This document shows positions 3,986-31,760 of a DNA stretch of 64,000 bases, one piece after another. The notes under the pieces are model-generated. The model saw nothing but the letters and a program-made list of their open reading frames with translations, searched no databases and was not told the origin of the DNA. The stretch covers positions 62,001 through 126,000 of the forward strand of contig CANFOL010000001.1 in the NCBI GenBank assembly GCA_947448695.1, in the 5' to 3' direction. Position 1 is the stretch's first letter. Each line of letters begins with the position of its first letter. The stretch is from Burkholderiaceae bacterium. Lineage in GTDB: Bacteria; Pseudomonadota; Gammaproteobacteria; Burkholderiales; Burkholderiaceae. Position numbers and translations under genes: made by a program.

Positions 3986-3992
3986 ATTGATT

Positions 3993-7182: not shown

Positions 7183-7184
7183 TT

Positions 7185-8078: not shown

Positions 8079-8137
8079 CACATTTTTCTAAGTTTTGGAT
8101 CCATATTTTTTAGAACTATATTAGTAAATACCCTTGC

Positions 8138-8205: not shown

Positions 8206-8221
8206 TTTGGAGTTTTGCAAG

Positions 8222-8716
8222 ATGTCTCAAATACCTCAAGTTACAGAAGTACCGCAAAATCAGATGGCTTATCGTCAGTTGTTATCGACTTTAACTGCGT
8301 CTATTCAGGCTAAAGCGTTGAATGATGATCTTGATTACTGGTTGAATGAACACCATGGTGTTGGTAGTCCGCTGTATGAGGAGTTAAAAAACTTAACGAT
8401 TGCTGGTGTAAAAGAGTCTTGGTTATGTAATCGTGAAGGGGCTGGCATCAAGTACGGTCGAATTTTTAAACCCTCTGAGGACTTAAACGGATTTTCGGTA
8501 GATGTTGTGGATATGGAAAATATTGTTGGACCTCGCCATATACATCCATTAGGTGAAATTGATTTAATCATGCCAATTTCTGGGGATGCTTTATTTGATG
8601 GTCGTTCTGCTGGTTGGATGGTGACTCCTCCAGGAAGCGAGCATGCTCCAACCGTTTCGAATGGCAGAGCGTATGTTTTATATCTGTTGCCTCAAGGGCA
8701 AATTCAATTTATATAA
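8222..8716 (+). CDS. DUF4863 / PnbB-like cupin-type protein, leading the boxD operon
   Basis: The 164-aa protein resembles the DUF4863 family, which includes 4-hydroxylaminobenzoate lyase PnbB. A cupin-like core is visible: VGPRHIHPLGEIDLIMPISGDALFDG followed by TPPGSEHAPTVSNG, giving histidine/glutamate positions suitable for metal or substrate binding. The ORF track starts at TTG 8207; ATG 8222 is preferred because GGAG lies 9 bp upstream. It precedes boxD by 12 bp and so is probably co-induced by benzoate. Its step in benzoate metabolism is unknown. Confidence 0.7.
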   Translation: MSQIPQVTEVPQNQMAYRQLLSTLTASIQAKALNDDLDYWLNEHHGVGSPLYEELKNLTIAGVKESWLCNREGAGIKYGRIFKPSEDLNGFSVDVVDMENIVGPRHIHPLGEIDLIMPISGDALFDGRSAGWMVTPPGSEHAPTVSNGRAYVLYLLPQGQIQFI

Positions 8717-8728
8717 TCTTAGGTCGAT

Positions 8729-11895: not shown

Positions 11896-11901
11896 TTATC
11901 T

Positions 11902-12672
11902 ATGGCTTTTATTGATATTCAATGGCGTAATCAGCCGATCAGAATCGAGTATGAATGGGTTGGTGAACCTCATTCTTCAAACACTATTCTCGTGTTTTTG
12001 CATGAAGGTTTAGGTTCGATTGCGATGTGGAAATATTTTCCAGAGAAACTTTGTCAGCAATTAGGATTAAAAGGTCTTGTGTATTCAAGGCCCGCGTATG
12101 GTCAATCGACACCTAGACCACATGATGTAAAGTGGGGCGTTGATTTTCTACATCAACAGGCGATAGAAGTCTTCCCTGAATTCATCAAAGCATTACAGAT
12201 AAACCAACCCGTTCATCTTTTGGGGCATAGCGATGGGGCTTCTATTGCCTTATTAGTAGCTGCTCTTCAACCGCATCTGGTGAATAAAGTTGCCGTGATA
12301 GCACCGCATATATTTGTCGAAGATAAAACAATTCAAAGCATTACAGAAGCTAAAGTCAATTATGAAGAAGGATCATTAAAAAAAGGACTTTCTAAGTATC
12401 ATGAAGATGTTGATTCTGCTTTTTGGGGTTGGAATGATATTTGGTTAAATCCTGATTTTTTGAGATTTAATATTACAGCTGAGCTCAAAAGGATATCCTG
12501 TCCTCTTTTAGCGATACAGGGATCAGACGACCCCTATGGGACAATGGCTCAGGTGAAAGATATTGTGAAATTTGTAAAACATGCGCGGGTAGTTGAAATA
12601 CCTAATTGTGGTCATTCTCCCCACCGCGATAGCCCTATAATACTTTCTGATACTTTAAAACAATTTGTCTAA
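11902..12672 (+). CDS. Alpha/beta hydrolase in the benzoate operon
   Basis: The 256-aa hydrolase has HEGLGSIAMWKYFP as oxyanion-hole region, nucleophile elbow LLGHSDGAS (Ser about 109), an Asp in GSDDPYG and a His in CGHSPHRDSP, so the triad is complete. Hydrolases of this type are common beside aromatic-acid CoA ligases, where a thioesterase that recovers CoA from dead-end esters is a reasonable role, although no activity can be assigned from sequence. It sits 6 bp behind the ligase and 47 bp before the transporter binding protein. Confidence 0.82.
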   Translation: MAFIDIQWRNQPIRIEYEWVGEPHSSNTILVFLHEGLGSIAMWKYFPEKLCQQLGLKGLVYSRPAYGQSTPRPHDVKWGVDFLHQQAIEVFPEFIKALQINQPVHLLGHSDGASIALLVAALQPHLVNKVAVIAPHIFVEDKTIQSITEAKVNYEEGSLKKGLSKYHEDVDSAFWGWNDIWLNPDFLRFNITAELKRISCPLLAIQGSDDPYGTMAQVKDIVKFVKHARVVEIPNCGHSPHRDSPIILSDTLKQFV

Positions 12673-12719
12673 CTATTTTTCCAATTCAAACACGTGATTT
12701 TTATATAAGGAGATTTCCA

Positions 12720-13880
12720 ATGAAAGGTCTTAAATTTAGTTTAGTCGCTTTAGCGATGGTTATTCCATCAGCTTTTGCTCAAAGCCAACCTCCTCTTAAA
12801 GTTGGAATGATGTTGCCCTATAGTGGGACTTTTGCAGCCTTAGGTAATGCAATTGATAACGGTTTTCAGTTATATGTGAAAGAGCAGGGTGGGAAAATTG
12901 GTGGTCGTGAGATTACATATGTAAGAGTTGATGATGAATCTGAGCCATCAAAAGCTACAGACAATATTAATAAACTCATTAAACGAGATAACGTTGATGT
13001 CGTGATTGGGACAGTTCATTCTGGAGTTGCCATGGCAATGGCTAAAGTAGCTAAAGAAACTGGCACCACCTTAATTATTCCAAATGCTGGAGCAGATATT
13101 ATTACAGGCCCGATGTGTGCAAAAAATATTTTTAGAAGCTCTTTTTCCAATAGCCAGCCTGGCTTTGCGATGGGTGAAGTAGCCGCGAAAAAAGGTTATA
13201 AGAATGCGATGACTATTACTTGGAAATATGCTGCTGGTGAAGAATCTGTTAAAGGTTTTAAAGAAGGTTTTGAAAAAGGTGGTGGAAAGGTTACTAAAGA
13301 ATTGACACTGCCTTTCCCTGGAGTCGAGTTCCAAGCATTGTTGACGGAAGTTGCTGCTGCTAAGCCGGATGTTGTTTATTCATTTTTTGCCGGTGGTGGT
13401 GCCGTTAAATTTGTGAAAGATTATGCTGCTGCAGGCTTAAATAAATCAATTCCTTTAGTTGGCCCAGGATTTTTAACGGATGGCACTCTTGAAGCTCAAG
13501 GTGAATCTGCGCAAGGTATGTTAACTGCTCTGCATTATGGGGACAATTTAAATATTAAACGTGATAATGAATTTAGACTAGCTTATGCTAAGCAATATAG
13601 ACTGCAACCTGATGTATACGCTGTTCAAGGTTACGACGCGGCGCAAATGTTAGCAGTTGGTTTGAAAGCAACCAAAGGTGATATCTCGAAAAAAGATGAT
13701 TTTGCTAAAGCAATTCGTGCCACTAAATTTGATAGTCCACGCGGATCTTTCACTATGTCTAATGCAAATAACCCAATCCAAGACTTTTATTTAAGACAAG
13801 TGGTTGGTAAAGAAAACAAAGTGATTGGTATCGCAAGTAAGTCACTGGCTGATCCAGCTCGTGGTTGTACGATTCAGTAA
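12720..13880 (+). CDS. ABC transporter periplasmic substrate-binding protein (LivK type), probably benzoate-binding
   Basis: A Sec signal peptide is evident (MKGLKFSLVALAMVIPSAFA, cleavage before QSQPP). The mature part is a type I periplasmic binding protein: KVGMMLPYSGTFAALG, DDESEPSKATDNINKLI, VIGTVHSGVAMAMA and a C-terminal GSFTMSNANNPIQDFYLRQV. AGGAG lies just before the ATG. As first gene of the transporter segment within the box operon, it most likely delivers benzoate or a close analogue rather than amino acids. Confidence 0.88.
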   Translation: MKGLKFSLVALAMVIPSAFAQSQPPLKVGMMLPYSGTFAALGNAIDNGFQLYVKEQGGKIGGREITYVRVDDESEPSKATDNINKLIKRDNVDVVIGTVHSGVAMAMAKVAKETGTTLIIPNAGADIITGPMCAKNIFRSSFSNSQPGFAMGEVAAKKGYKNAMTITWKYAAGEESVKGFKEGFEKGGGKVTKELTLPFPGVEFQALLTEVAAAKPDVVYSFFAGGGAVKFVKDYAAAGLNKSIPLVGPGFLTDGTLEAQGESAQGMLTALHYGDNLNIKRDNEFRLAYAKQYRLQPDVYAVQGYDAAQMLAVGLKATKGDISKKDDFAKAIRATKFDSPRGSFTMSNANNPIQDFYLRQVVGKENKVIGIASKSLADPARGCTIQ

Positions 13881-13898
13881 ATTTTTATTAGCCCATTG

Positions 13899-14783
13899 AT
13901 GGATTTTTCGACTTTTTTAATACAAACGTTGAACTCAGTTCAATATGGGCTTTTGTTATTTTTAGTTGCTGCAGGCCTCACTCTCATTTTTGGCATCATG
14001 GGAGTGATTAATCTTGCCCACGGTAGTTTTTATATGATGGGTTCATATCTTGCCTTTGCTTTATCTCCAGTCGTCGCTAATTCTTTTGGAGGTGGCTTAA
14101 TTTCTACTTTCATCATTGGGCTTTTAATAGCTATCATCCTTGGGTACATCTTAGAGTGGCTATTCTACAGTTACTTATATGAGCGAGATCATCTTCAGCA
14201 AGTATTGATGACCTATGGATTAATTTTGGTCATCGAAGAAATTCGTAGTTTATTAGTTGGAGATGATGTCCATGGAGTACCGATTCCAGATTGGTTATCC
14301 GCGAGTATTAAGTTGAGTGAGGTCATGACCTATCCCGTCTATCGATTATTTATTTCTGGAGTTTGTATTTTGCTTGCTTTAGCTATGTTTTTAGTTTTAA
14401 GTAAAACTAAATTAGGCATGATGATTCGAGCGGGAAGCGTTAATCGCGAAATGATTCAATCTTTAGGCGTGAATATTAAATTTCTTTATCGAATTGTTTT
14501 TGCTGCAGGCATCGCAATTGCTGCATTTGCCGGGATGGTTGCTGCGCCTGTGTCCTCTGTATATCCTGGAATGGGGCAAGGAGTCCTCATCATCTGCTTT
14601 GTGATCGTGGTAATTGGTGGTATTGGTTCCATCAAAGGAGCTCTAATTGCTTCACTTCTAATTGGCTTCATTGATACGTTTGGGAAAGTCCTCTTGCCAG
14701 AAGTTGCAGGAGTGCTGGTATACGTTTTTATGGCTGTGATTTTGTTATGGAAGCCTAGTGGATTATTTAAGGCGGGTTCATGA
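13899..14783 (+). CDS. Branched-chain-type ABC transporter permease (LivH-like)
   Basis: The protein is very hydrophobic with about eight membrane segments. The LivH signature is present at the N-terminus (AAGLTLIFGIMGVINLAHGSFYMMGSY) and VVIGGIGSIKGALIASLLIG in the C-terminal half forms the EAA-like loop that contacts the ATPases. ATG at 13899 is used rather than the ORF-track TTG one codon earlier. It is followed by the LivM-like gene with a 4-bp overlap. The assigned role is import of the ligand bound by the preceding protein. Confidence 0.9.
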   Translation: MDFSTFLIQTLNSVQYGLLLFLVAAGLTLIFGIMGVINLAHGSFYMMGSYLAFALSPVVANSFGGGLISTFIIGLLIAIILGYILEWLFYSYLYERDHLQQVLMTYGLILVIEEIRSLLVGDDVHGVPIPDWLSASIKLSEVMTYPVYRLFISGVCILLALAMFLVLSKTKLGMMIRAGSVNREMIQSLGVNIKFLYRIVFAAGIAIAAFAGMVAAPVSSVYPGMGQGVLIICFVIVVIGGIGSIKGALIASLLIGFIDTFGKVLLPEVAGVLVYVFMAVILLWKPSGLFKAGS

Positions 14784-15775
14784 ACAAATCCCAATCTTTA
14801 TTTTTAGGTATTTTATTTGTAGTATTAATTGGTTTGCCTTTCCTTGGATCTGAATATTATGTGGATTGGATGACAAAGACCCTGATTTACGGAATTTTTG
14901 CACTGAGTTTAGAACTTCTAGTTGGAACTACTGGTTTAGTTTGTTTTGGGCAAGCTGCATTTTTTGGGATTGGCGCGTATGCAGTAGTTAAGATATCTGC
15001 TGACCATGTTTCACCAGATACAGTTTATCTTTTACCGATATCGATGTTATTAGCAGGCGTCTTTGCATTATTTGTTGGCGCTTTATCCCTAAGAACTAAG
15101 GGCGTGTATTTTATTATGGTCACTTTAGCGTTTGCACAAATGGCCTATTATGTTATTCACGATACTCCAATTGGAGGTGGTACAGATGGTATATATTTAT
15201 ACAACAAACCCTCTTTGTTCGGTTGGTCAATTTCTTCCTCGATAGAGTTTTATCTCTTTACGGTGGGTTGTCTGTTTTTTGTCTTTGGTTTATTAGGACT
15301 GATAACACATTCACGATTTGGTAGAGCTCTTACCGGAATTCGTATTAACGAATTAAGAATGAGAGCCATTGGATATGAAACCTACAATTACAAACTGATT
15401 GCCTTTGTTATTTCTGGGATGATTGCTGGACTTTCAGGTTACCTATTTGCGGTAAAAGATGGATTTGTAAATCCTGAATTATTAAGTTGGCATTTATCTG
15501 GCGCAGTCTTAATCATGATTATTCTAGGTGGTTTAGGTCACATACGAGGAGCTTTTATTGGGGCTTTTGCATTTGCTCTTCTTGAAGAGTTCTTCCGGTC
15601 TGAGACTATATTTGGATCCTTTGCGAAGTATTGGCATTTAGGTTTAGGACTTTCAATTATTCTTTGCGTAGCATTTTTACCAAAGGGTTTATTTGGTATA
15701 CCGTCTATTTGGAAATCTAAATTAACTGGCACAAAGAATGTACAAAACAATTTACAACTTGAGGAAAAAGAATGA
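14780..15775 (+). CDS. Branched-chain-type ABC transporter permease (LivM-like)
   Basis: The 331-aa inner-membrane protein carries the LivM hallmarks SLELLVGTTGLVCFGQAAFFGIGAYA near residue 40 and IILGGLGHIRGAFIGAFAFALLEE near 255, with about eight to ten predicted helices. It forms a heterodimer with the preceding LivH-like protein. Both flanking junctions overlap by 4 bp (ATGA), indicating tight translational coupling in the box operon transporter. Confidence 0.9.
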   Translation: MNKSQSLFLGILFVVLIGLPFLGSEYYVDWMTKTLIYGIFALSLELLVGTTGLVCFGQAAFFGIGAYAVVKISADHVSPDTVYLLPISMLLAGVFALFVGALSLRTKGVYFIMVTLAFAQMAYYVIHDTPIGGGTDGIYLYNKPSLFGWSISSSIEFYLFTVGCLFFVFGLLGLITHSRFGRALTGIRINELRMRAIGYETYNYKLIAFVISGMIAGLSGYLFAVKDGFVNPELLSWHLSGAVLIMIILGGLGHIRGAFIGAFAFALLEEFFRSETIFGSFAKYWHLGLGLSIILCVAFLPKGLFGIPSIWKSKLTGTKNVQNNLQLEEKE

Positions 15776-16533
15776 CTCAAGCTCAATCGGTTATCTTCAT
15801 GCGTGGAGTTAAACTCACCAAACGTTGGGGTGGTTTAGTTGCAGTGAATGAAGTTGATATTGATTTAGCCTTAGGTCAAATTCATGCCGTTATTGGCACC
15901 AATGGCGCAGGAAAATCTACCCTGATTAATTTATTATCTGGGGAACTGCCATTAAGTTCTGGAAGCGTAGAATTACTAGGCAATGATGTTACAAAAAAAT
16001 CACAACCTGCAAGAGCCCATTTGGGACTAGGAAAAAGTTATCAACGAAATACGATTTTTCCTGAATTAACTGTGTTAGAAAACTGTCGATTATCAGCGCA
16101 ATCACGATTGCAAAAGCCATGGTATTTTTGGCAGAATGGACAGCGCTGTACGATCAGTAATCAGGCAGCACTTCAGACACTTGAAAAAACAGGTTTATCC
16201 TCAGTAATTCATCGACAAGCAGGACTTCTCTCGCATGGACAAAAACGACAATTAGAAGTTGCTATGTGTTTAGCTACTGAGCCAAAAGTACTCTTATTAG
16301 ATGAGCCATTAGCAGGAATGGGAGCTGACGAAACAGATCGTATGCTGAATTTTTTAATAAGTTTACGTGGTGATCATGCAATTATGTTGGTAGAGCATGA
16401 TATGGACGCAGTCTTTAAAGTTGCTGATGTTATTACCGTCATGGTGAATGGTTCTGTCATTACTAAAGGTTCTCCTTATGAGGTTAGAAATAATCCAGAG
16501 GTTCAAACTGCTTATTTGGGTGAGTCTATATGA
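15772..16533 (+). CDS. ABC transporter ATP-binding protein (LivG-like)
   Basis: The 253-aa ATPase has Walker A GTNGAGKST (about 42), signature LLSHGQKRQLEVAM, Walker B KVLLLDEPLAGMG and H-loop LVEHDMD. The C-terminal GSPYEVRNNPEVQTAYLGE is the LivG tail. It energises the aromatic-acid importer of this operon together with the next gene, with which it overlaps by 4 bp. The signature has H in place of the second G of LSGGQ, which is frequent in LivG-type proteins. Confidence 0.9.
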   Translation: MTQAQSVIFMRGVKLTKRWGGLVAVNEVDIDLALGQIHAVIGTNGAGKSTLINLLSGELPLSSGSVELLGNDVTKKSQPARAHLGLGKSYQRNTIFPELTVLENCRLSAQSRLQKPWYFWQNGQRCTISNQAALQTLEKTGLSSVIHRQAGLLSHGQKRQLEVAMCLATEPKVLLLDEPLAGMGADETDRMLNFLISLRGDHAIMLVEHDMDAVFKVADVITVMVNGSVITKGSPYEVRNNPEVQTAYLGESI

Positions 16534-17237
16534 ATCATTTCTTAGACGCGAAAGATATTCATGCTTGGTATGGCTCAAGTCACGTTTTACATGGTGTTGA
16601 TATACAAATTAATCCTCATGAAACAATTGGTTTATTGGGTCGAAATGGTATGGGTAAAAGCACGCTGATTCGCGCCTTGCTAGGACATGTTGAGCAACGC
16701 TCCGGCAGTATTATGATTAATGGCCATAACACTTTGGAGATGAAAGCATATCAAGTTGCAAGATTGGGTGTGGCATACGTTCCTGAAGGAAGAGGAGTTT
16801 TTCCGAATCTGACCGTTAGAGAAAATCTCATCATGTCAGCTCGACCGGGTAGTAAGGGACAATTAGATTGGACTCTAGATCGTGTATTAACCACTTTCCC
16901 ACGTTTAGCCGAACGAATTCATCATCTAGGGGAGCAACTCTCGGGTGGAGAACAACAAATGTTATCGATTAGCCGTGCTTTAATGACACACCCTGATTTA
17001 TTAATTTTGGATGAGGCTACAGAGGGTTTGGCACCATTGATTGTTGCTGAAATTTGGCGCGTGATTCAAGATATTCGGCAGGCGGGTATTGCTACCTTGA
17101 TTGTGGATCGTGATTGGCGTAAGGTTCTCCACCACACAGATCGAGCAATTGTTCTACAAAAAGGGCAGGTAGTCCTGTCAGGTCATTCTTCAGAAATAGT
17201 CAATCATCCTGAACTGATGAATTACTTAGGCGTTTAA
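16530..17237 (+). CDS. ABC transporter ATP-binding protein (LivF-like)
   Basis: The 235-aa ATPase has Walker A GRNGMGKST, Q-loop PEGRGVFPNLTV, signature LSGGEQQMLSISRAL and Walker B LLILDEATEGLAPL, all typical of LivF. It is the last gene of the ten-gene benzoate operon that starts at 8222. Its 3' end overlaps the convergent oxygenase small-subunit gene by 4 bp, leaving no room for a separate terminator downstream. Confidence 0.9.
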   Translation: MNHFLDAKDIHAWYGSSHVLHGVDIQINPHETIGLLGRNGMGKSTLIRALLGHVEQRSGSIMINGHNTLEMKAYQVARLGVAYVPEGRGVFPNLTVRENLIMSARPGSKGQLDWTLDRVLTTFPRLAERIHHLGEQLSGGEQQMLSISRALMTHPDLLILDEATEGLAPLIVAEIWRVIQDIRQAGIATLIVDRDWRKVLHHTDRAIVLQKGQVVLSGHSSEIVNHPELMNYLGV

Positions 17238-17701
17238 ATTGGGTAAATGATGGAGTTCGGAATCATTTCTGAATCATAGATGCATAGTCTAGAACGTATT
17301 TTTAAACCGTTTTGTGTGATTTGTAGTTCATCGATATAACGACCCACATTAAATACCGTGGTTTCTTGGCTGAGTTTGGTTCTAAATACAGAATAATTTG
17401 ATTCACAAAAAATAACATTGTTATCCACTTTGTGGATGAGTGGCATACCAATAATATGGCGTTGATAATAGGGGTCATGAAACAAGGTCTCGGAGATTCC
17501 ATAGGCACGATCTTTCAGCATTCCCTTGGAGAGCATCGCTAAAGTGCAAAGCGGAAATCCTCTGTCGAAGTTTTCTCTAGGTTGTATTTTGTAGATACAA
17601 TCCTCAACAAAAAGATCAACCCATTGATCCCATTTTTTTTCATCAACAATGTGAGCGTAAAGGGCATTTAGATGAATCACTTGTTGAACATGGTCATCCA
17701 T
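17234..17701 (-). CDS. nagH: Aromatic-ring-hydroxylating oxygenase small subunit (NagH-like)
   Basis: The 155-aa protein has the compact alpha+beta fold sequence of ring-hydroxylating dioxygenase beta subunits (LNALYAHIVDEKKWDQWVDLFVEDCIYKIQPRENFDRG at the N-terminus, YIDELQITQNGLKIRSRLCIYDSE near the C-terminus). It is structural and forms an alpha3beta3-type oligomer with the large subunit encoded 2 bp upstream. The pairing with a NagG-like subunit suggests salicylate 5-hydroxylase. The gene symbol is therefore provisional. Confidence 0.75.
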   Translation of the reverse strand: MDDHVQQVIHLNALYAHIVDEKKWDQWVDLFVEDCIYKIQPRENFDRGFPLCTLAMLSKGMLKDRAYGISETLFHDPYYQRHIIGMPLIHKVDNNVIFCESNYSVFRTKLSQETTVFNVGRYIDELQITQNGLKIRSRLCIYDSEMIPNSIIYPI

Positions 17702-17703
17702 CG

Positions 17704-18963
17704 TTAAATCTCCATCACTTTACGCCAATAGTTGTACATTCCACGAATCAAAGTTTCGGTGACCATATGCTCGGTATTTTCAACTTCAACACCACCGAGT
17801 TCTGCAATCACTTGGTGTGACGGTTTTTGTTCAAAGCCCATTTGAGAAAGTTCAATTACTTCCCCATCGTCAGCAGAAACAAAGCCGGCTGGACCAAATA
17901 AATTAGCCTGAATTAAACGGCGTTCGGTCATTTCGGGAGTGTCATTTGCAAAACCAAAATGGGTCCAAACAAAATCAAAAGATCCATTCCCATTGGGTTG
18001 AATATGCCTTGTAGAAACACTATTGACCTGTTGTTGAATAATGACTGATGGGAAAATCGTCAGCATGACCGCTGTTGGTCCGTTCCACCAATCTTCTTGG
18101 ACAATATCAATCAATCTTTTATCATTGATTTCCATAGCATCTTTAAAACTAGTAACACCGGCGGTTACTTCTTGAGACTTTACGCCGGCATTACCTCGTG
18201 TTGAGATCATTGCAGCATGACGAAAATGACGATCCATACGCAGTTTTGATTCATTATCGGCACGCCATAGGCCATAAGTAATAAACCAAGTATGCAGTAA
18301 ACCCGGATGGTAAGGGTCTTTAATGTTTTCTTGCATCAACTTCCAGTTACCTGGAATGCGTTGTCTGTTATAGCCCAGTATAGTTAATTCACGACCATCA
18401 AACAAACGATCGAAGTATTGCAACATATCAGGACCTAAATAGTCCTTGAGTGATTCTACGGAGTGATCAAAGGAAGCAAAGATAACACCACCGCGAGAAG
18501 AGACTTTCAGGCGATTAAGACTGTGGTCAGCTGGACTAAAATCTTTCGGCATTCCCCCTTGGATTTGCCCATCTTTTTTCACACCTCGGCGAAACGGAAC
18601 ACCTTGTAAGTCACCCTTTAAGCTATAGTTCCATTGATGGTAAGGGCAAACGAATTCTTTTTTATTACCATGTCTTTCACGGCAAAACTGCATGCCACGA
18701 TGGGCGCAGACATTTTCAAGAACGTGGATAACACCCTCAAGATCTCTAGAGACGATGACAGATCGCTCACCAATGACAGTGCGTTTGAAATCTCCGGCAT
18801 TCGGAATCTCAGCTTCTAACCCAACGTAACACCAATGCTGGTTATAAAAAAGGCGATCTAACTCTTTTTTGTATATATCTTTATCAGTGTAGGCCCAAAA
18901 AGGGATTCTACTAGAGCCAGATTCTAGCCAATGATGATCGGTTGGAAAGGTCGTATTTGTCAT
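17704..18963 (-). CDS. nagG: Rieske oxygenase large subunit, salicylate 5-hydroxylase-like (NagG)
   Basis: The 419-aa protein has a Rieske centre (CAHRGMQFC...CPYHQW, about residues 83-108) and a mononuclear iron site DPYHPGLLH (about 205). Stretches such as GLEAEIPNAGDFKRTVIGER, FRRGVKKDGQIQGGMPKDF and FPSVIIQQQVNSVSTRHIQP match my memory of NagG from Ralstonia, which converts salicylate to gentisate. Ferredoxin and reductase partners are not in the window, nor is gentisate dioxygenase. A related substrate (another hydroxybenzoate or anthranilate) cannot be excluded. Confidence 0.82.
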   Translation of the reverse strand: MTNTTFPTDHHWLESGSSRIPFWAYTDKDIYKKELDRLFYNQHWCYVGLEAEIPNAGDFKRTVIGERSVIVSRDLEGVIHVLENVCAHRGMQFCRERHGNKKEFVCPYHQWNYSLKGDLQGVPFRRGVKKDGQIQGGMPKDFSPADHSLNRLKVSSRGGVIFASFDHSVESLKDYLGPDMLQYFDRLFDGRELTILGYNRQRIPGNWKLMQENIKDPYHPGLLHTWFITYGLWRADNESKLRMDRHFRHAAMISTRGNAGVKSQEVTAGVTSFKDAMEINDKRLIDIVQEDWWNGPTAVMLTIFPSVIIQQQVNSVSTRHIQPNGNGSFDFVWTHFGFANDTPEMTERRLIQANLFGPAGFVSADDGEVIELSQMGFEQKPSHQVIAELGGVEVENTEHMVTETLIRGMYNYWRKVMEI

Positions 18964-19744: not shown

Positions 19745-21052
19745 TTGATAGAAATCACACCTGAATATGAAGCAGTTTTAGCAGCGATTGCGAGAAAAGA
19801 TCCTTATATCTTTATTAGTGGGCGAGCTGGGACTGGTAAGACAACCCTGGTCAATTATCTGCGCAATAACATGACTGAGCAGGTTGCTGTAGTTGCACCA
19901 ACTGGTGTGGCTGCGTTGCAGGTTCGCGGGGTCACTATCCATTCGTTTTTTCGCTTTCCCCCACGTCTGATTTTTCCAGAAAACGATATTAAAAAATTAA
20001 AAGATCGGCGTTTATATAACAAGTTAGGTGTTCTTATCATTGATGAAATATCGATGGTTCGGGCAGACATGATTGATGCTATTGATATGTTTTTACGTGT
20101 TAATGGCCCAAGAGAGGGTCACCCCTTTGGTGGAATACAAGTTATTTTTGTTGGTGATTTATTTCAATTACCACCTGTAGTTCGTCAAGAAGAGATGGAA
20201 GTTTTGCGAGAGAGAGGCTATGAAGCCGCTTATTTTTTTAATGCCAATATTTTGCACCGTTCTGAGTTAACTTATATTGAGCTCATTAAAATTTTTCGCC
20301 AAAAAGACCATTCCTTTACACAATTACTAAATAAAGTGCGGATGAATCAAGATGCAAGTAGCGCATTACAAATCATTAATGAAACGTGTTACCGACCTAA
20401 TATGGGGGCAGATAATCAGGCTATAACACTAACTACCACGAATCAGAGAGCAGATAGTATTAATGCCAAAGAAATGCGTTTACTAGATACAGAAACTCGA
20501 ATTTATAAAGGTCGTATTGATGGTAAGTTCAACATTGATGAAAGAAACCTACCCTCGCCCCTAGATTTAACCTTAAAGTTAAGTGCTAGAGTCATGTTTA
20601 CCGCGAATGATCGCAATATTCCGAGGCGTTGGATGAATGGTACCTTAGGTAAAGTAGTGCAATTTGATACAGACTCCATCACAGTTGAATTAGATGTGAG
20701 TACTACTGCAACATCGAAATTAAGACATCTAGTAGAAGTGCCCATTTTTGCCTGGGAGTCTTACCAATATGAGTTTGATGAAAAAGAACAGCAGATTAAA
20801 CCTATCGTAAATGGCAAGTTTGAGCAGTTTCCATTGATGCTTGCTTGGGCGGTTACCATTCATAAAAGTCAGGGAAAGACGTTAGAGAAGGTTAGAGTCG
20901 ATTTAACTGGAGGGAGTTTTGCGCCAGGTCAGGTCTATGTAGCCTTGAGTCGATGTACAACTCTTGAAGGAATTGAGTTACTGCAGCCTATAAAAAATAA
21001 TGACGTGCGCACTGATGCGCACGTCAAAGAGTTTTATCGAAAACTGAATTAA
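19745..21052 (+). CDS. Pif1-like ATP-dependent DNA helicase
   Basis: The 435-aa superfamily 1 helicase has Walker A SGRAGTGKTTL (about 25), GVAALQVRGVTIHSFF (motif Ia), Walker B VLIIDEISMV, GDLFQLPPV (motif III) and the C-terminal WAVTIHKSQGKTL and VYVALSRCTTLEGI (motifs V/VI). Pif1-like proteins unwind DNA in a 5'-3' direction. The start is TTG at 19745 with AAAGAG 5 bp before it; the first internal ATG lies after Walker A and can be excluded. The final 50 bp encode a strong hairpin. Confidence 0.85.
   Translation: MIEITPEYEAVLAAIARKDPYIFISGRAGTGKTTLVNYLRNNMTEQVAVVAPTGVAALQVRGVTIHSFFRFPPRLIFPENDIKKLKDRRLYNKLGVLIIDEISMVRADMIDAIDMFLRVNGPREGHPFGGIQVIFVGDLFQLPPVVRQEEMEVLRERGYEAAYFFNANILHRSELTYIELIKIFRQKDHSFTQLLNKVRMNQDASSALQIINETCYRPNMGADNQAITLTTTNQRADSINAKEMRLLDTETRIYKGRIDGKFNIDERNLPSPLDLTLKLSARVMFTANDRNIPRRWMNGTLGKVVQFDTDSITVELDVSTTATSKLRHLVEVPIFAWESYQYEFDEKEQQIKPIVNGKFEQFPLMLAWAVTIHKSQGKTLEKVRVDLTGGSFAPGQVYVALSRCTTLEGIELLQPIKNNDVRTDAHVKEFYRKLN
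21001..21026 (+). terminator. Perfect hairpin inside the 3' end of the helicase gene
   Basis: TGACGTGCGCA (21001-21011) and TGCGCACGTCA (21016-21026) form an 11-bp GC-rich stem with a CTGA tetraloop, followed by a short TTTT at 21032-21035. It lies within coding sequence about 25 bp before the stop codon. Because the next gene converges immediately, it may act as the terminator of this unit. Confidence 0.4.
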
Positions 21053-22042
21053 TTACTTTTTCGATTTTTTCTTTGCTGTTCCCTTTTTCGCCATTGGCGT
21101 AGACCAATTTTCGAGAACCTTATAGACAACTGCGGTATCGTCTTTGGCATGTCCTAGAGCGTTGGCAGCGTTATAGACTGGAATACATGAAGCAAATACA
21201 GGTGCTGGCACAGCATAAGATTCAATCGCACCGCTAATCAGATGCATATCTTTATTCCAAACATCAATTTTCATGGTGGCATCACTCCAAGTACGATTAG
21301 CCATTGCAGGACCTCTAACTTGGAACATTCTTGAACTACCAGCGCTATTGCCTATGACTTCCACGATTTGATGTGCATCTAGTCCCATTTGCACGCCCAA
21401 TAAAATTGCCTCAGCAGAAGCGACATTGTGAATCGCTACCAAATGGTTAGCGACTAGCTTCATTTTCATACCTTGGCCGAATTCGCCGATGTTGTACATC
21501 GCGCGAGCAAATCCTTCGAATACTGGAGACATTTTTTGGATGGCTTTTTTATCACCACTCGCATAGACCACTAGATCTTTAGTTTTGGCTTGTGCGCCAG
21601 TGCCGGACAATGGGCAATCTAAAAGAATCATGCCAGCTTTTGCAAGCACAGCGCGAGCCGCCTCTTTGGCATCGATAGGCAGAGTTCCTAATTCAGCAAC
21701 AATCGTACCTTTATTTGCCGTGCTGACAATTTCATTAACAACACTCATCAGTGCGCCAACAGAGGGTAGGGAAAGCAAAATATAATTAGCTTTAGCAGCA
21801 ACATCTGCCACAGTTTTTTGTATATCAATACCTTCTTTTTTCATTATCTTTTGTTGATGAGGACTTGGATCAAAGCCATAGACATGAAATCCAGCTTGGT
21901 TAAGATTAGAGGCCATTGCTGAACCCATGATGCCTAGTCCGATAAATCCAACGACTGGTTTCACATGCATTTGATCATCTTTTTTCGTTGAAATACGTGT
22001 TGCAGGAACACGCGCTGAAGTTGATTTTTTTGTCGTTGCCAT
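21053..22042 (-). CDS. NAD(P)-dependent oxidoreductase, 3-hydroxyisobutyrate dehydrogenase family, with lysine-rich tails
   Basis: The core has GFIGLGIMGSAMASNL (Rossmann, about residue 33), DCPLSGTGAQAKTKDL (substrate-binding signature) and GMKMKLVANHLVAIHN with the catalytic lysine. Members reduce or oxidise short beta-hydroxyacids. Compared with the usual roughly 290 aa, this one has about 30 extra N-terminal residues (MATTKKSTSARVPATRISTKK) and a C-terminal AKKGTAKKKSKK, both strongly basic. AGGAAA precedes the ATG, supporting the long start. The substrate is unknown; it lies 25 bp downstream of an alpha/beta hydrolase in the same orientation. Confidence 0.85.
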   Translation of the reverse strand: MATTKKSTSARVPATRISTKKDDQMHVKPVVGFIGLGIMGSAMASNLNQAGFHVYGFDPSPHQQKIMKKEGIDIQKTVADVAAKANYILLSLPSVGALMSVVNEIVSTANKGTIVAELGTLPIDAKEAARAVLAKAGMILLDCPLSGTGAQAKTKDLVVYASGDKKAIQKMSPVFEGFARAMYNIGEFGQGMKMKLVANHLVAIHNVASAEAILLGVQMGLDAHQIVEVIGNSAGSSRMFQVRGPAMANRTWSDATMKIDVWNKDMHLISGAIESYAVPAPVFASCIPVYNAANALGHAKDDTAVVYKVLENWSTPMAKKGTAKKKSKK

Positions 22043-22067: not shown

Positions 22068-22862
22068 TTAGATAAAAGAATGAATTGCATCTAAAAATGC
22101 GTGAGGATCTTGGAGTTGGGGAACATGCGCAAGTCCTGGTAATATTTTTAACTGCGCATGAGGAAGTAATTTTGCCAGTTCCTCTGACATCGCGACAGGA
22201 GTTGCCTCATCAAGCTCACCAACGACCACTAAGGAAGGTATTTCTAAATTGGTAACAAGAGGTCTTAAGTCCATCGTTGATAAAGCCTCACAAGCCCCTT
22301 GGAATGTATCCATATGGATATTTAAAAAGCGTTCTTTACGATCAGCAATTAACTTTGGATGTTGTTCTTGATATTCTGGCGCAAATAAACGACGCATAGC
22401 CACATCAGCAATAGCAATCAAGCCTTTATTTTTGGCATTTTCAGACATGCCTCTAAAAGCAGCGCGACCTGGTTCAGAAAAACAAGCACCACAATCTGCC
22501 AAGATTAATTTAGCAGGTAATTGAGGATGTCGCAGAGCTGTATTTAAGGCGACAAATCCACCGTAACCATTACCCATAAAAATAGGTGCTTGAGAAAGAT
22601 TTAAAGAATGAATGACATGCGCAATTTGATCGGAAATGAGATCTAAAGAACCTCCAACAAAGTCAGAGTGATCAAAACCAGGTAAACTTAATTGAATGAC
22701 TTGATGTTTTTTGAGTAGGGTTGGTGTAATTAAATCCCAACTGGATTGATCCGCTAATAGAGAGTGGAACAAGATGATAGCTTGTCCAGAACCTGCAGAT
22801 TTAAAACTTAAATTTTTACCTTGATTACTAATTTGATGTGTTTCAAAAGAATGCGTTTGCAT
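22068..22862 (-). CDS. Alpha/beta-hydrolase-fold protein lacking the nucleophilic serine
   Basis: The 264-aa protein has the layout of 3-oxoadipate enol-lactonase-like hydrolases: ILFHSLLADQSSW, acid residue in VVVGELDEATPV and histidine in GLAHVPQLQDP. The elbow, however, reads FMGNGYGGF, with glycine where Ser/Cys/Asp should stand (codon GGT). Asp and His are retained. It could be a non-hydrolytic lyase or isomerase, or an inactive paralogue; the neighbouring amidohydrolase, dehydrogenase and transporter genes suggest a catabolic role. Confidence 0.8.
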   Translation of the reverse strand: MQTHSFETHQISNQGKNLSFKSAGSGQAIILFHSLLADQSSWDLITPTLLKKHQVIQLSLPGFDHSDFVGGSLDLISDQIAHVIHSLNLSQAPIFMGNGYGGFVALNTALRHPQLPAKLILADCGACFSEPGRAAFRGMSENAKNKGLIAIADVAMRRLFAPEYQEQHPKLIADRKERFLNIHMDTFQGACEALSTMDLRPLVTNLEIPSLVVVGELDEATPVAMSEELAKLLPHAQLKILPGLAHVPQLQDPHAFLDAIHSFI

Positions 22863-22984: not shown

Positions 22985-24235
22985 ATGACAATTCAAAGTA
23001 CTTTTTTATATCGATTTATATCACTATTTCTTTTTCTCTTTGCTACCAATATAGCGTTCGCAGGTCCGAATGATCCGATTCGAGTTGGCTTTTTGACAAT
23101 TAAATCAGGTGCATTAGCTGCAGGTGGAATACAGATGGAGGATGGTTTAAAGCTGTACTTGAAAGAGCGCAACAATATGATTGCAGGTCGTAAGGTAGAA
23201 CTTTTTACAGCGGATACCGGTGGGCAGCCAGCCATTACTAAAGCCAAAATTCAAGAATTAGTTGAAAAAGATAAAGTCAATGTTGTGATTGGTCCTTTGG
23301 CAGCATTTGAAGCTCTAGCGGTAGATGACTATATTCGTAAAGCAGAAATCCCAACCATTTCACCCTCCGCTGGTGCGGAAGATTTAACGCAGCGTAAGCC
23401 CAATCCATGGTTTGTAAGAGCTGTTGGAAGTTCAGCGCAACCCAATCATCCCTTTGGTGAATATGTTGCTAAAGAGCTTAAATACAAACGCATAGCAATC
23501 TTAGCCGACGATTTTGCTTTTGGGCATGAGAATGTTGCAGGCTTTCAAAGAACCTTTGAAGAAAACGGTGGGAAGGTTGTACAAAAGCTTTGGTCACCTC
23601 TTAATACGGCTGACTACGGAGCTTATATTAGTCAAATTAAATCAAACGTAGATGCGATTTATATCGCTTATGCGGGTAGTAATGGCGTGAAATTCTTACG
23701 TCAATACAAAGAGTATGGCATGCAAGGAAAGATTCCGGTTTTGGGTAATATGACCGCCGTTGATGAGGGAATTTTAGGTTCAATGGGAGAAGAGGCGATT
23801 GGTGTGATTTCACCAGGTTGGTATGCTCAAACGATTAATAATCCTAACAATAACAAGTTCAACCAAGGGATGCTCACGAATTACAAACAAGCCCCAGGAT
23901 ATTATTCTGTAGGTGCTTACGGTGCGATGTTGATGCTAGAACAATCTTTAAAAGACAATAAATCGAATATTGAAGATAAAAAATCATTTATGAATGCACT
24001 GCGTAGTGTACAAGTTGCGAATGATCCTAGAGGGAAGATTACCCTTGACGCACTCGGAAACCCTATTATGGATATCTATATTCGTAAAGTCGAGCGTGTA
24101 AACGGCAAATTGACGAACACGATATTGAAAACTTACCCAGGAGTGACACAATTCTGGAAATATAAGAGCTCAGAGTTTTTAGCTAATCCGGTATATTCCA
24201 GAGATTATCCACCCTCTAACAATATAGAGAAATAA
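22985..24235 (+). CDS. ABC transporter substrate-binding protein (LivK type), Sec-exported paralogue
   Basis: The start is ATG 22985 with GGAG 8 bp upstream (the ORF-track start is a TTG four codons earlier). The signal peptide MTIQSTFLYRFISLFLFLFA ends at AFA before GPNDP. The mature domain contains VRVGFLTIKSGALAAGG-type N-terminus, VIGPLAAFEALAVDDYIRKAEIPTIS and AEDLTQRKPNPWFVRA, shared almost word for word with the binding protein at 28800-30041. It has no permease or ATPase genes of its own and probably uses the livFGMH system at 25.5-28.8 kb. Confidence 0.87.
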   Translation: MTIQSTFLYRFISLFLFLFATNIAFAGPNDPIRVGFLTIKSGALAAGGIQMEDGLKLYLKERNNMIAGRKVELFTADTGGQPAITKAKIQELVEKDKVNVVIGPLAAFEALAVDDYIRKAEIPTISPSAGAEDLTQRKPNPWFVRAVGSSAQPNHPFGEYVAKELKYKRIAILADDFAFGHENVAGFQRTFEENGGKVVQKLWSPLNTADYGAYISQIKSNVDAIYIAYAGSNGVKFLRQYKEYGMQGKIPVLGNMTAVDEGILGSMGEEAIGVISPGWYAQTINNPNNNKFNQGMLTNYKQAPGYYSVGAYGAMLMLEQSLKDNKSNIEDKKSFMNALRSVQVANDPRGKITLDALGNPIMDIYIRKVERVNGKLTNTILKTYPGVTQFWKYKSSEFLANPVYSRDYPPSNNIEK

Positions 24236-24278: not shown

Positions 24279-25475
24279 TTACAGCTTAATTTTCATCATT
24301 TTGACTGCATTACCACCTTCAATTAATTGACGATCGGCAACGGATAATTTTTTCACCCCACGGATGGTTTGCAATGGATGATCATCTGCCATATCGTATG
24401 GGTAGTCAGTGCCAAGCATGACGTGATCAGCGCCGAAGCGACGGATCAAGTTGCCGAGCATTTCTGAATCATGTGTAATCGTATCAAAATAGAATTTCTC
24501 TAAATATGATGAAGGCTTTTTCTTAATCACGGTACGCGTATCTTTACGAGCTCCCCAGGCATGATCCATACGTGCCCAGTAGTGAGCTAAGAAACCGCCA
24601 CCATGTGCACAGATGAATTTGATTTTAGGATAACGAGCCACCACGCCATCAAAAATCAGATGGCTAACTGCTACAGTAGTTTCTAATGGATTACCAATCA
24701 CATTATTAAAGTAGTGGTTCGTTAAACGCTCACCTTGAGTAAAGCCTAATGGGTGCATAAAAATCACGCATCCTAATTCATTGGCTTTTGCAAAAAACTT
24801 TTCTAGACCCAAACTTGGATCTGTAAGGTTTTTACCATTCACGTTAGTACAAATCTCAACTCCCTTAAGCCCTAAAGTTTTGACACAATACTCTAATTCT
24901 TTTACGGCCATATCAGCATTTTGCAAAGGTACAGAGCCCATCCCAACGAATCGATCAGGATTGCCAGCAACTACATTAGCAATACCATCATTTACTTCAC
25001 GTGCAAGACTTGCACCTAGTTCAGCTTCTGTAAAGTAAAAGTAATGATAGGGCGCTGGAGCAACTGCTTGGATATCTACACCCATTTTGTCCATATCTTT
25101 TAAACGCTCTTCAACACCCATTAGTTTAGGGGCGCGAGTTTTCATTTGTATAACGTTAGTTTCATTGGTTAGTTCAGTAGCAAAGATCACAGTCGGATCA
25201 TAAGACGCAGCATTCAGATGGGCAGTTTTTGCATTCACTACAGGGTTTAAATAATGACAATGAATATCAACAACAACATGTTGACCCTTACGATTTTTAA
25301 CTACTCGTTGTGTAGGACTTGTTAATTTTTTAGCAGTTGATTTCTTTGCTGGAGTTGTAGCACTCTTCTTGCTTGCGGCTTTAGCTACCGCTTTACCAGC
25401 AAGCATTTGAGGAGATTCATAAGAGCCATGTTGATGACTTGGGTCTGAGCAAAGTGCGGAACAGGTATAGAACAT
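24279..25475 (-). CDS. Amidohydrolase (ACMSD-like decarboxylase family) with a lysine-rich N-terminal extension
   Basis: The TIM-barrel amidohydrolase-2 metal ligands are visible: HCH in VVDIHCHYLNP, His in FMHPLGF, His in ICAHGGGF and Asp in MLGTDYPYD. The family contains aminocarboxymuconate-semialdehyde decarboxylase and aromatic acid decarboxylases. The barrel begins only about 75 residues in; before it lies a basic stretch, KAASKKSATTPAKKSTAKK. The ATG at 25475 has AGAGG upstream, supporting this long start. The N-terminus also holds two Cys and two His residues (CSALCSDPSHQH). The reaction is unassigned. Confidence 0.85.
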   Translation of the reverse strand: MFYTCSALCSDPSHQHGSYESPQMLAGKAVAKAASKKSATTPAKKSTAKKLTSPTQRVVKNRKGQHVVVDIHCHYLNPVVNAKTAHLNAASYDPTVIFATELTNETNVIQMKTRAPKLMGVEERLKDMDKMGVDIQAVAPAPYHYFYFTEAELGASLAREVNDGIANVVAGNPDRFVGMGSVPLQNADMAVKELEYCVKTLGLKGVEICTNVNGKNLTDPSLGLEKFFAKANELGCVIFMHPLGFTQGERLTNHYFNNVIGNPLETTVAVSHLIFDGVVARYPKIKFICAHGGGFLAHYWARMDHAWGARKDTRTVIKKKPSSYLEKFYFDTITHDSEMLGNLIRRFGADHVMLGTDYPYDMADDHPLQTIRGVKKLSVADRQLIEGGNAVKMMKIKL

Positions 25476-25535: not shown

Positions 25536-26249
25536 TTAAAACACACCAAGATGTTTCGTTGCTAGCTCTGGGTTAGCTTGAACTTCGGCAGCACTTCCAT
25601 AATAAGCGAGTCTTCCTGTGTTCAGAACTGCCACATCATCAGCAACAGACATTGCAAGTTGGAAATTTTGTTCGACTAAGATGATTGACAAGCCTTCATT
25701 CTTGATTTCCTTAATACCTCTTGCTACCTCTGCAACGATCAACGGGGCTAACCCCTCAGAGGGTTCATCTAAAAGAAGTACATCTGGATTGCCCATCAAG
25801 GCGCGACCAATCGCAAGCATTTGTTGCTCGCCACCAGAAAGAGTTCCAGCACGTTGTTTAATCCGATCTCTTAATTGGGGGAAGAGATCAAAGACGCGTG
25901 AAATATTCCAGGGATTTTGAATTTCTCTATTTTGGGCCGCTACTTTTAGATTTTCTTCAACTGAAAGGCTTGGAAAAATTCTTCTTCCTTGAGGAACTAA
26001 TCGAATGCCAGCGCGGGCGATTGTTTCTGGTTTTTGACGAGCAACAGGTTTACCAAACAAAGTAATTTCACCAGTTTTGGCGGTTACCAAGCCGGCAACA
26101 GTCATCATTGTCGTTGTTTTACCTGCACCGTTTCTCCCAAGAAGAGCAAGTAAAGAGGATTTCCTAAGCGTCAAAGAAACATCATGAAGGACATGACTAT
26201 CCCCGTAGTACGAATTGATTTTATCGATAATTAATGCATCAGTGGCCAA
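25536..26249 (-). CDS. livF: ABC transporter ATP-binding protein (LivF-like)
   Basis: The ATPase has Walker A GRNGAGKTTT, PQGRRIFPSLSVEEN, signature LSGGEQQMLAIGRAL and Walker B VLLLDEPSEGLAPL. The ORF track extends upstream to an ATG inside livG, but a perfect AGGAGG (26256-26261) stands 6 bp before TTG at 26249, giving the start MATDALIIDKINSYYG; I use that. It overlaps the end of livG by 11 bp and is the last gene of the importer operon. Confidence 0.9.
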   Translation of the reverse strand: MATDALIIDKINSYYGDSHVLHDVSLTLRKSSLLALLGRNGAGKTTTMMTVAGLVTAKTGEITLFGKPVARQKPETIARAGIRLVPQGRRIFPSLSVEENLKVAAQNREIQNPWNISRVFDLFPQLRDRIKQRAGTLSGGEQQMLAIGRALMGNPDVLLLDEPSEGLAPLIVAEVARGIKEIKNEGLSIILVEQNFQLAMSVADDVAVLNTGRLAYYGSAAEVQANPELATKHLGVF

Positions 26250-26979
26250 GATAGACCTCCTGTGTTTTTGGATCATTGACTACAGCATCACGGTCGCCAT
26301 CGACAATGACCTTACCGTATTGCAATACTAGAATTTTTTCAGCGAAAGCTAAGGCCATTTCCATATCATGTTCAATCATGACAATGGTTACTTCTTTCGA
26401 GATGTTATTAATTAAGTCAGCTACGACCACACGTTCATCTTGAGATAAACCTGCTAAAGGTTCATCTAAAAGCAACAATTTAGGCTTTTGGGCTAAGGCA
26501 AGGGCTATTTCAACACGGCGTTGTTCACCGTAAGAAATTTCAGACACTTTCCTAAATGCTTGCTGCTTCAAACCAACGCTATCCAGGAATTCAATCGCCT
26601 GATCATATAATTCATCTTCAGTGGTAAGCGAATTAAAAATATTTTTCTTACGCTGATGAATTCCTAGGAGGGATAAGACAACGTTGTGTGCCAAGGTATC
26701 TTGTTTAAAGAGAGTAATAATTTGATAAGTTCTACTCATCCCCATATGTGCTCTTGCATGCACAGGTTTTTCAATCACCTCAGTGCCGAAAATACTCACT
26801 GAGCCTGAGTCAGGTTTTAAATCGCCAGTAATTTGAGCGAAGAGAGTCGTTTTTCCAGCTCCATTAGGTCCAATAATTAAACGGCGTTCACCAGGATTTA
26901 CTTGTAAAGAAACATTTTGGGTTACAGCAATACCACCAAAACTCTTTTTAAGGTCTTTCACTTCAAGAGCGAGTGTCAT
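26239..26979 (-). CDS. livG: ABC transporter ATP-binding protein (LivG-like)
   Basis: The 246-aa ATPase has Walker A GPNGAGKTTLFAQITG, signature EISYGEQRRVEIALAL, Walker B LLLLDEPLAGLSQDE and H-loop MIEHDMEMAL, with the LivG-type C-terminus VVNDPKTQEVYLGH. It is coupled to livM by a 4-bp overlap. Cargo is inferred from neighbours to be a small carboxylate, perhaps aromatic. Confidence 0.9.
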   Translation of the reverse strand: MTLALEVKDLKKSFGGIAVTQNVSLQVNPGERRLIIGPNGAGKTTLFAQITGDLKPDSGSVSIFGTEVIEKPVHARAHMGMSRTYQIITLFKQDTLAHNVVLSLLGIHQRKKNIFNSLTTEDELYDQAIEFLDSVGLKQQAFRKVSEISYGEQRRVEIALALAQKPKLLLLDEPLAGLSQDERVVVADLINNISKEVTIVMIEHDMEMALAFAEKILVLQYGKVIVDGDRDAVVNDPKTQEVYLGH

Positions 26980-27920
26980 GGCTTCTTACCTCCAAACAAA
27001 CGACTCTTTAATTGTGTGAAACCTGGTGCCATACCTGCAGGCATAAAGATCACAATAAAGACAAAAATAATTCCCAGTAACATATTCCATCGCTCCACAA
27101 AACCAGATACATAATTTTTCAGAAGAACAATTAGAATCGAACCTAAAATTGGGCCAGCAAGCGTGCCAGCTCCACCAGCAATCACACAAAGAAGAGCCTC
27201 GGCAGATGATGTAATAGAAATCACACTAGGGTGGATATATTTATTGAGGTAGATATACATGAGACCTGAAACTGCACCAAAGAAACTTGCCATGACGAAA
27301 GTGATCCAGCGAATCATCCATACGTTATAACCCAAGGCACTCATACGCTTTTCTTGATCACGTGTGCCTTTGAGGGTTGAACCAAAAGGTGAGTTTACAA
27401 TGCGAGCAATGAAAAATAGACAGACGATAGTGATGATGAGGCAGAACCAATAGAAATTATTTGAATTTTCGAGATTAATTCCAAATGGAGTTGGGCGTGT
27501 CAGACCTGCGATCCCATTATCACCATTAGTCAGACCAACCCAGCGGTAACCAATACCCCAAATGATTTGGGATAATGCCAAAGTCAGCATTAAGAAACTC
27601 AGCCCAGAAGCGCGCAGTGAAATCCAACCAAAGATAGCTCCTACAAAGGTCGTAAATACGAGAGCAATGACAGCCGTATAGTCATGCGTCATACCAAAAT
27701 TCTGGAATAACCATGCAGATGTGTAGGCAGCTAAACCTAAATAGGTGGCATGACCCAAGGAGGTAAGGCCACCATAACCAACCAGTAAATTTAAACTTGC
27801 AGCAAAAACCACAGCGACCATAATTTGGCTACCTAGGTTCACATAATACTCACCAAAAAATAATGGCAAAATGATGAGAGTGGCGACGAGCACTAAGTAA
27901 ATTACATATTTTTTCATCAT
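26976..27920 (-). CDS. livM: ABC transporter permease (LivM-like)
   Basis: The 314-aa membrane protein has the LivM signature SLNLLVGYGGLTSLGHATYLGLAAYTSA near residue 42 and IAGGAGTLAGPILGSILIVL near 245. It is flanked by 4-bp overlaps with livH upstream and livG downstream. The first two codons are both ATG, so the start is 27920 or 27917. Confidence 0.9.
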   Translation of the reverse strand: MMKKYVIYLVLVATLIILPLFFGEYYVNLGSQIMVAVVFAASLNLLVGYGGLTSLGHATYLGLAAYTSAWLFQNFGMTHDYTAVIALVFTTFVGAIFGWISLRASGLSFLMLTLALSQIIWGIGYRWVGLTNGDNGIAGLTRPTPFGINLENSNNFYWFCLIITIVCLFFIARIVNSPFGSTLKGTRDQEKRMSALGYNVWMIRWITFVMASFFGAVSGLMYIYLNKYIHPSVISITSSAEALLCVIAGGAGTLAGPILGSILIVLLKNYVSGFVERWNMLLGIIFVFIVIFMPAGMAPGFTQLKSRLFGGKKP

Positions 27921-28777
27921 GCGCGCATTGTTCCAAAAAGACCCGATGGACGAAATGCAATCACAAACACCATGGGTAAAAACAAGATCACATAAGCTAA
28001 ATCAGGTACTAAAGCAATACCGAAGGTATAGATAAAGCCAATGATAAAACTTGCGACGAAAGTGCCTACCAGACTACCGACACCGCCTAAAATAACCACA
28101 ATTAATGCCAGGGGTAACATATCCGCATCTAAGCCGGGATAGGCATTCAGCATTGGACCACCGACCGTGCCGCCAAGTCCAGCCATGAGAGCACCAAGAC
28201 TAAAAACAATAGTAAATAGTTGTGAGGCAGGAATACCTACAGCACGAGCCATTTGCATGTCGTCAACACCTGCGCGGATCATGGCACCTAATCGGGTTCT
28301 TTCCATCAATAGGTAAAGTAAAACAGCACAGATCATTGAAATTAAAAGGACGACTAAACGATAGGTTGGAAAAGTAAAGCCAAACATTTGCATCGGGGCG
28401 CGTAACATTTCTGGGGCATTAATTGGAATTGGATCTCCCCCCCAGATCATGAGGCAGGCATCCGCGGCAATAAATGAAAGACCTAAAGTTGCTAATACTT
28501 GACCTTGTGAATTGCCTGAAAGACTTCGCAGAATAAAGCGTTCGATGATGGCGCCCAAAAGACCGACCACAGCCATAGCAACAATAGCGGCAACAACTAG
28601 ACTATAACCTCCGCGTAAAACTGAGGCAGCAATGTAAGCGCCAATCATGAAAAGAGATCCGTGCGTTAAATTGGCAATACGCATGAGACCGAATATTAAT
28701 GCAAAACCGGAGGACAACATAAACAGTAGTCCCCCGAGTGCAAGACTATTCAGGGTTTGAATGACCCAAAATTGCAT
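27917..28777 (-). CDS. livH: ABC transporter permease (LivH-like)
   Basis: The 286-aa membrane protein shows the LivH signature SSGFALIFGLMRIANLTHGSLFMIGAY at the N-terminus and VVILGGVGSLVGTFVASFIIGF near 215, with about eight helices. It is first permease of the second importer and follows the Tat-exported binding protein gene by 22 bp in the same transcript, which probably starts at the S1 promoter near 30080. Confidence 0.9.
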   Translation of the reverse strand: MQFWVIQTLNSLALGGLLFMLSSGFALIFGLMRIANLTHGSLFMIGAYIAASVLRGGYSLVVAAIVAMAVVGLLGAIIERFILRSLSGNSQGQVLATLGLSFIAADACLMIWGGDPIPINAPEMLRAPMQMFGFTFPTYRLVVLLISMICAVLLYLLMERTRLGAMIRAGVDDMQMARAVGIPASQLFTIVFSLGALMAGLGGTVGGPMLNAYPGLDADMLPLALIVVILGGVGSLVGTFVASFIIGFIYTFGIALVPDLAYVILFLPMVFVIAFRPSGLFGTMRA

Positions 28778-31277: not shown

Positions 31278-31760
31278 ATGACAACTTCTACTCAAATACT
31301 ACTCAATGGGCAAAGCGTTACTGTAAACGCTCCAGAAAATACTCCATTACTTTATGTTTTACGAAACGACCTGGAACACAAAGGAACTCGCTTTGGTTGT
31401 GGCACAGGAAATTGCGGTGCATGTACAGTGATGGTCGATGGACAGCCGATGCAATCTTGCGATATGCAACTTTGGGCAGCCTCTGGCAAAGAAGTGATTA
31501 CGGCAGAGGGTTTAGCAGATGACCCCATTGGTCAGTTGGTACAAAAGTCGTTTATCGATGAGCAAGCTGCTCAGTGTGGGTATTGTATTAACGGTATTTT
31601 GATGAGTGTTACTGCCTTACTGAAGAAAAATACACAACCTAGTAAAGAAATATTAATGGAGTCTTTGAATCGACATTTATGTCGTTGTGGGACCCATGTG
31701 CGTATTTTGCGTGCTATCGATCGTGTGATTCAACAGTTAAATGAAAAGAGGGCGGCATGA
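31278..31760 (+). CDS. (2Fe-2S)-binding subunit of a molybdenum hydroxylase (IorA/NicA-like)
   Basis: The 160-aa protein carries a plant-type 2Fe-2S cluster (CGTGNCGACTVMVDGQPMQSC, about 42-64) and a second C-terminal cluster (CGYCINGILM and HLCRCGTHVRI, about 100-145), the standard small subunit of xanthine-oxidase-family enzymes. It shuttles electrons from the molybdenum site. It overlaps the large-subunit gene by 4 bp. Similar two-subunit enzymes hydroxylate N-heterocycles such as isoquinoline or nicotinate, or oxidise aldehydes. Confidence 0.93.
   Translation: MTTSTQILLNGQSVTVNAPENTPLLYVLRNDLEHKGTRFGCGTGNCGACTVMVDGQPMQSCDMQLWAASGKEVITAEGLADDPIGQLVQKSFIDEQAAQCGYCINGILMSVTALLKKNTQPSKEILMESLNRHLCRCGTHVRILRAIDRVIQQLNEKRAA

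Follow-up and report, generated by a model that had tools for sequence, protein, structure and literature searches.

Proteins of the alpha/beta-hydrolase fold that have no nucleophile are already known, and include HOD/AqdC, MKS1, and the NDRG family. In HOD and AqdC, a His-Asp pair serves as the base, and alanine occurs naturally at the elbow in AqdC and some others (PMC10548524). The tomato methylketone synthase MKS1 uses a histidine base to decarboxylate a beta-keto acid without a canonical triad (PMC10548524). According to a 2024 survey, carboxy-lyases of the fold lack the serine (PMC11878206). Annotation of this fold nearly always assumes a serine, cysteine, or aspartate nucleophile, so such genes default to the label 'alpha/beta hydrolase'. 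In the open-licence literature, we found no description of a bacterial hydrolase with a glycine elbow, nor of glycine combined with an intact Asp-His pair in bacterial catabolic clusters.

The gene considered here lies at 22068-22862, on the minus strand of the window, that is, the whole 64,000-nucleotide stretch of Burkholderiaceae DNA that was analysed. It begins with ATG, runs for 264 codons without an internal stop, and encodes a protein of 264 amino acids whose alpha/beta-hydrolase fold was recognized from the open reading frame, Pfam, and AlphaFold2. The Pfam matches include Abhydrolase_1 (56.7 bits) and Abhydrolase_6. The initial annotation, which gave no strand, had reported GNGYGG where GxSxG is expected, with the acid and histidine positions retained. 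Re-reading of codons 97-102 (22557-22574, minus strand; GGT AAT GGT TAC GGT GGA) returned the same motif, with G99 in place of serine. The acid position after strand 7, D218 (22209-22211), lies within GELDEATPV, and the catalytic histidine position, H246 (22125-22127), lies within GLAHVP. Both residues are present in all 50 distinct members of the clade described below and in 43 of 43 serine-bearing relatives.

The best fold and sequence matches of this protein among solved structures are serine enzymes. An AlphaFold2 model built from a five-sequence alignment (pLDDT 86, pTM 0.87) was matched best among PDB entries by the enol-lactonase PcaD (2xua) in Foldseek, with a TM score of 0.86 and 24% identity. 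PcaD acts in aromatic catabolism, is of similar length, and has the Asp and His positions in common; however, its elbow reads GLSMGG. The top NCBIfam relatives are likewise enol-lactonases of the PcaCD/PcaD type, every one scoring far under its cut-off, and the protein fails membership of TIGR02427 (PcaD) at 132.8 bits against 255.85. Among solved structures, the top sequence match is an esterase of Thermogutta terrifontis (4uhc/4uhh; E about 1.6e-22), which shares the strand-7 Asp and the His and is the nearest single tree row to the clade, on a long branch. Its elbow is also GLSMGG, whereas the clade has no serine. The oxyanion-hole segment is retained along with the Asp-His dyad, and the geometry of the active site is probably that of its homologues.

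Glycine occupies the nucleophile position in 50 of 50 distinct members of what we call the GNG clade, which thus has no serine, cysteine, or aspartate nucleophile in the elbow; serine occupies this position in all 43 nearest relatives. N98, G99, D218, and H246 never vary within the clade, and the Asp and His are invariant even between members of 30% pairwise identity. Besides the glycine, the changes specific to the clade are P61, N98, F103, F128, R175, and P248. The glycine codons vary synonymously (GGC 26, GGT 22, GGG 2), and every outgroup serine codon is TCN, two or more base changes removed from GGN. In a tree inferred without the elbow columns, 30 thinned GNG sequences formed one side of a branch with an SH-aLRT of 98; this was a quick build, with a midpoint root used for drawing only. 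Two Ser/Gly changes are needed in all on this tree, the second belonging to a separate family with a GLGLGG elbow. A profile built from part of the clade gave GNG members at least 327 bits and the serine group less than 178, with nothing between; the last five sequences, which stood outside the build, scored 328-353. A divergent clade member (L070:1411-2208) has the elbow SNGFGG, reads HTLLAD for HSLLAD, and sits on a long branch of the tree.

In a sample of 151 genomes of the same genus, 26 carry an orthologue; the full-length ones are 59-98% identical, and one more is partial. Wherever the elbow is covered it reads GNG[YF]GG, and the Asp and His are retained. When 399 genomes of the order were searched with a profile, remoter members with the elbow [GAS]NGFG[AG] emerged in several other Burkholderiales families, and a search of plasmids yielded members in Methylobacterium (48%) and Sinorhizobium (43%). 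A phylum-level sample added five members from a single family, which from their similarity are probably Alphaproteobacteria; the elbow region reads GNGYGGF in four of them and GNGFGGF in the fifth. A class-level sample at E<=1e-40 yielded no member beyond the window's own genome. Besides the window's own genus, the clade thus includes Alphaproteobacteria and members of several further Burkholderiales families, a spread that is a lower bound because few candidates were scored per large genome.

These data bear directly on whether the gene is decaying. The initial annotation had considered simple decay unlikely because the frame is intact and of normal length, and had regarded serine in all homologues of the same gene context as the sign of a recent inactivating mutation. 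Alignment of those homologues gave the reverse, as each one that covers the elbow has glycine. Between the gene and its congeners, dN/dS is 0.06-0.14 (NG86); for remoter pairs dS is saturated, and in one it was not computable. A recent inactivating mutation, a sequencing error, or a pseudogene therefore has a negligible probability: glycine is found in every orthologue from many independent genomes, its codons have turned over synonymously, dN/dS is well below 1, the clade is deep, and we found no evidence in favour of such an origin. The notion of a single odd gene was likewise rejected, as the clade is deep and its neighbours recur. The GNG branch is an old, well-kept lineage of the hydrolase fold. 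The suggestion of a repurposed member was borne out to this extent, and it applies to a wider clade than the one gene; the protein may be non-hydrolytic (a lyase, isomerase, or binder) or a hydrolase that employs a directly activated water.

Immediately downstream of the gene, at a distance of 25 bp on the same strand, is a 3-hydroxyisobutyrate-dehydrogenase-like (HIBADH-like) oxidoreductase with NAD_binding_2/11 domains (21053-22042, minus), and the two are probably co-transcribed. On the other side, a solute-binding protein of the Liv/aromatic-acid type is divergently oriented (22985-24235, plus; closest solved chains 4zpj and 4ey3/4eyg/4eyk). It is followed by an amidohydrolase_2 protein whose nearest solved relatives are ACMSD decarboxylases (24279-25475, minus) and by a Liv-type ABC transporter with two ATPases and two permeases (25536-28777, minus), whose synteny is conserved. 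The small and large subunits of a Rieske ring-hydroxylating oxygenase (17234-18963, minus) are distant from the anthranilate dioxygenase AndAcAd, and the oxygenase adjoins the hydrolase-like gene in some members of the genus only. Between these subunits and the HIBADH-like gene, the catabolic region contains an ORF resembling an ATP-dependent helicase (19745-21052; PIF1/RecD-like by sequence), which is kept there in congeners. An iad auxin (indole-3-acetate) locus, suspected from the Rieske oxygenase and the Liv transporter, was rejected given this partial linkage; the absence of the terms hydrolase and amidohydrolase from the iad literature examined also argues against it.

The layout of the window, with the HIBADH-like gene, the solute-binding protein, the ACMSD-like amidohydrolase, and the Liv genes, is kept in about ten congeners. 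Another group of congeners has the row GntR, aldehyde dehydrogenase (ALDH), the gene itself, and MaiA, again adjoined by that solute-binding protein and the Liv genes. GntR and ALDH are placed opposite the gene in Methylobacterium, in Sinorhizobium, and in four genomes of a family coded f255, and most of these loci also carry an MFS transporter that appears AAHS-like; in one f255 genome, the surroundings resemble those in the window, with the amidohydrolase, GntR, the solute-binding protein, the Liv genes, and CoxL-type genes. The names GntR, AAHS, RidA, CocE-like, and isochorismatase-like come from inspection of the sequence wherever no family search is named. Over 46 loci, the neighbours were ALDH (26), the solute-binding protein (22), GntR (19), MaiA (19), the amidohydrolase (13), and the HIBADH-like gene (12), counts that are dominated by congeners and so do not represent independent events. 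Two MaiA neighbours were checked, and both scored above the maiA equivalog cut-off. The window's own genome has no close ALDH (best match 36% identity) and carries a MaiA-like gene (57%) on another contig, and the usual partners are missing altogether from two of the 46 loci (L092 and L095). Since the set of neighbours varies in this way, no single fixed pathway is demonstrated.

Other parts of the window and genome contain related features. Region 1132-17237 looks like a benzoyl-CoA (box) pathway from its sequence and gene order. As read from the ORFs, it would include BoxA (2642-3916), BoxB (3993-5468), BoxC (5453-7111), a BoxR-like gene (7185-8081), an aldehyde dehydrogenase (8729-10294), a CoA ligase (10291-11895), and a Liv transporter. 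A two-subunit molybdenum hydroxylase of XdhS/XdhL-like type lies at 31278-33871; the best match of its large subunit is 4-hydroxybenzoyl-CoA reductase, far under the cut-off. An alpha/beta hydrolase with an ordinary GLSLGA elbow (35161-35928) is 23% identical to the GNG protein. The genome has 18 Abhydrolase_1 matches in total; in a motif scan most have a serine elbow, two clearly have glycine, and a few are ambiguous. The second glycine-elbow hydrolase, GLGLGG, lies outside the window (L003; L140:7173-7964) and is separate from the GNG clade. An amidohydrolase_2-like gene lies directly upstream of it, TctC-type genes are nearby, and among its orthologues examined in the genus, ten read GLGLG and one ALGLGS.

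On balance, the GNG protein is probably catalytically active and belongs to a distinct subfamily of the alpha/beta-hydrolase fold, one that has lost its nucleophile for good and uses His-Asp as a general acid/base. The conserved N-G elbow and Asp218-His246 pair, the enol-lactonase-like predicted fold, strong purifying selection, and recurrent linkage to uptake and catabolic genes of the aromatic-acid type support this reading. Exchange of the serine for glycine with the other two catalytic residues intact points to a probably different chemistry in aromatic breakdown. His246, tuned by Asp218, would act as the general acid/base, and no acyl-enzyme would form; HOD/AqdC and MKS1 are precedents for this on the same fold. 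The substrate may be small and probably carries a carboxylate: an intermediate in the degradation of (hetero)aromatic acids, such as an oxo or enol acid around the point of ring cleavage, which the retained oxyanion hole would hold together with the conserved arginines R158 and R175, the latter clade-specific. The likeliest chemistry would be a proton transfer leading to decarboxylation, C-C or C-N cleavage, tautomerisation, or hydration. In a hydrolytic variant, water in the space vacated by the serine side chain would attack directly: activated by His-Asp, it would hydrolyse its target (an activated ester, lactone, formamide, or imine) in a single step. This sub-case, whose probability is counted within the preferred reading, is a possible but minority outcome. 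It is consistent with the retained oxyanion-hole segment and dyad, with the enol-lactonase as nearest fold, and with the water seen in the oxyanion site of HOD structures (PMC10548524), but serine is kept in all relatives outside the two glycine families examined, so its loss would normally cost rate.

The retained Asp and His could instead have a structural reason, and the protein may be a pseudoenzyme or ligand binder, for example a pathway sensor, chaperone, or regulator, like NDRG or the hormone receptors of the fold. The NDRG family shares the fold and the loss of the nucleophile, a GntR regulator often adjoins the gene, and the Pfam Ndr profile matches the window protein at 36.0 bits against a gathering score of 23.3, albeit under Abhydrolase_1, and reaches E<=0.001 in 14 of 19 aligned members. 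NDRG3, however, has lost every triad residue and its substrate path is blocked by helices (PMC7022630), whereas the Asp and His are invariant here, and the company of dehydrogenase, isomerase, and decarboxylase-like genes also speaks for catalysis; we regard a binding role as rather unlikely. HOD and AqdC, likened to the GNG protein by description of the active site, have the same fold and work with a His-Asp dyad; by this analogy the protein would be a cofactor-free dioxygenase acting on a (hetero)aromatic enol. HOD needs only the His-Asp pair, AqdC has alanine at the elbow (PMC10548524), and N-heteroaromatic-type genes (Mo hydroxylase, RidA, and isochorismatase-like, as read) lie near some members. 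D123, present in 48 of 50 members, lies 24 residues past the elbow, close to the 25 that separate HOD D126 from S101; but D218, at the usual strand-7 position, is equally available as the acid and present in 50 of 50. The elbow of HOD/AqdC is Ala or Ser, not Gly as here, and ring-cleaving dioxygenation by the clade appears improbable. MKS1, a plant protein, differs in that the canonical triad is absent and a threonine assists, while the GNG protein keeps its Asp. Slightly less probable than such a dioxygenase is a nucleophile shifted elsewhere in the pocket. S34 (49 of 50 members, with Thr in L070) and N98 (50 of 50) are conserved candidates, yet S34 is also found in 49% of serine-bearing relatives and sits in the oxyanion-hole loop, and asparagine is a poor nucleophile. 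C124 was rejected as an alternative nucleophile, as its conservation ends with the genus.

Beyond the individual enzyme, the GNG clade may represent an undescribed subfamily of Burkholderiales and Alphaproteobacteria that performs a nucleophile-free step in a widespread (hetero)aromatic acid pathway, with the Ser-to-Gly loss repeated in the GLGLGG family of the same genus, also beside an amidohydrolase; we put this forward tentatively, at a little under an even chance. With the nucleophile lost and the acid/base pair strictly kept, the clade offers a natural test of how the fold moves from acyl-enzyme to acid-base chemistry, and the context of its operons gives a defined place in which to search for the substrate.
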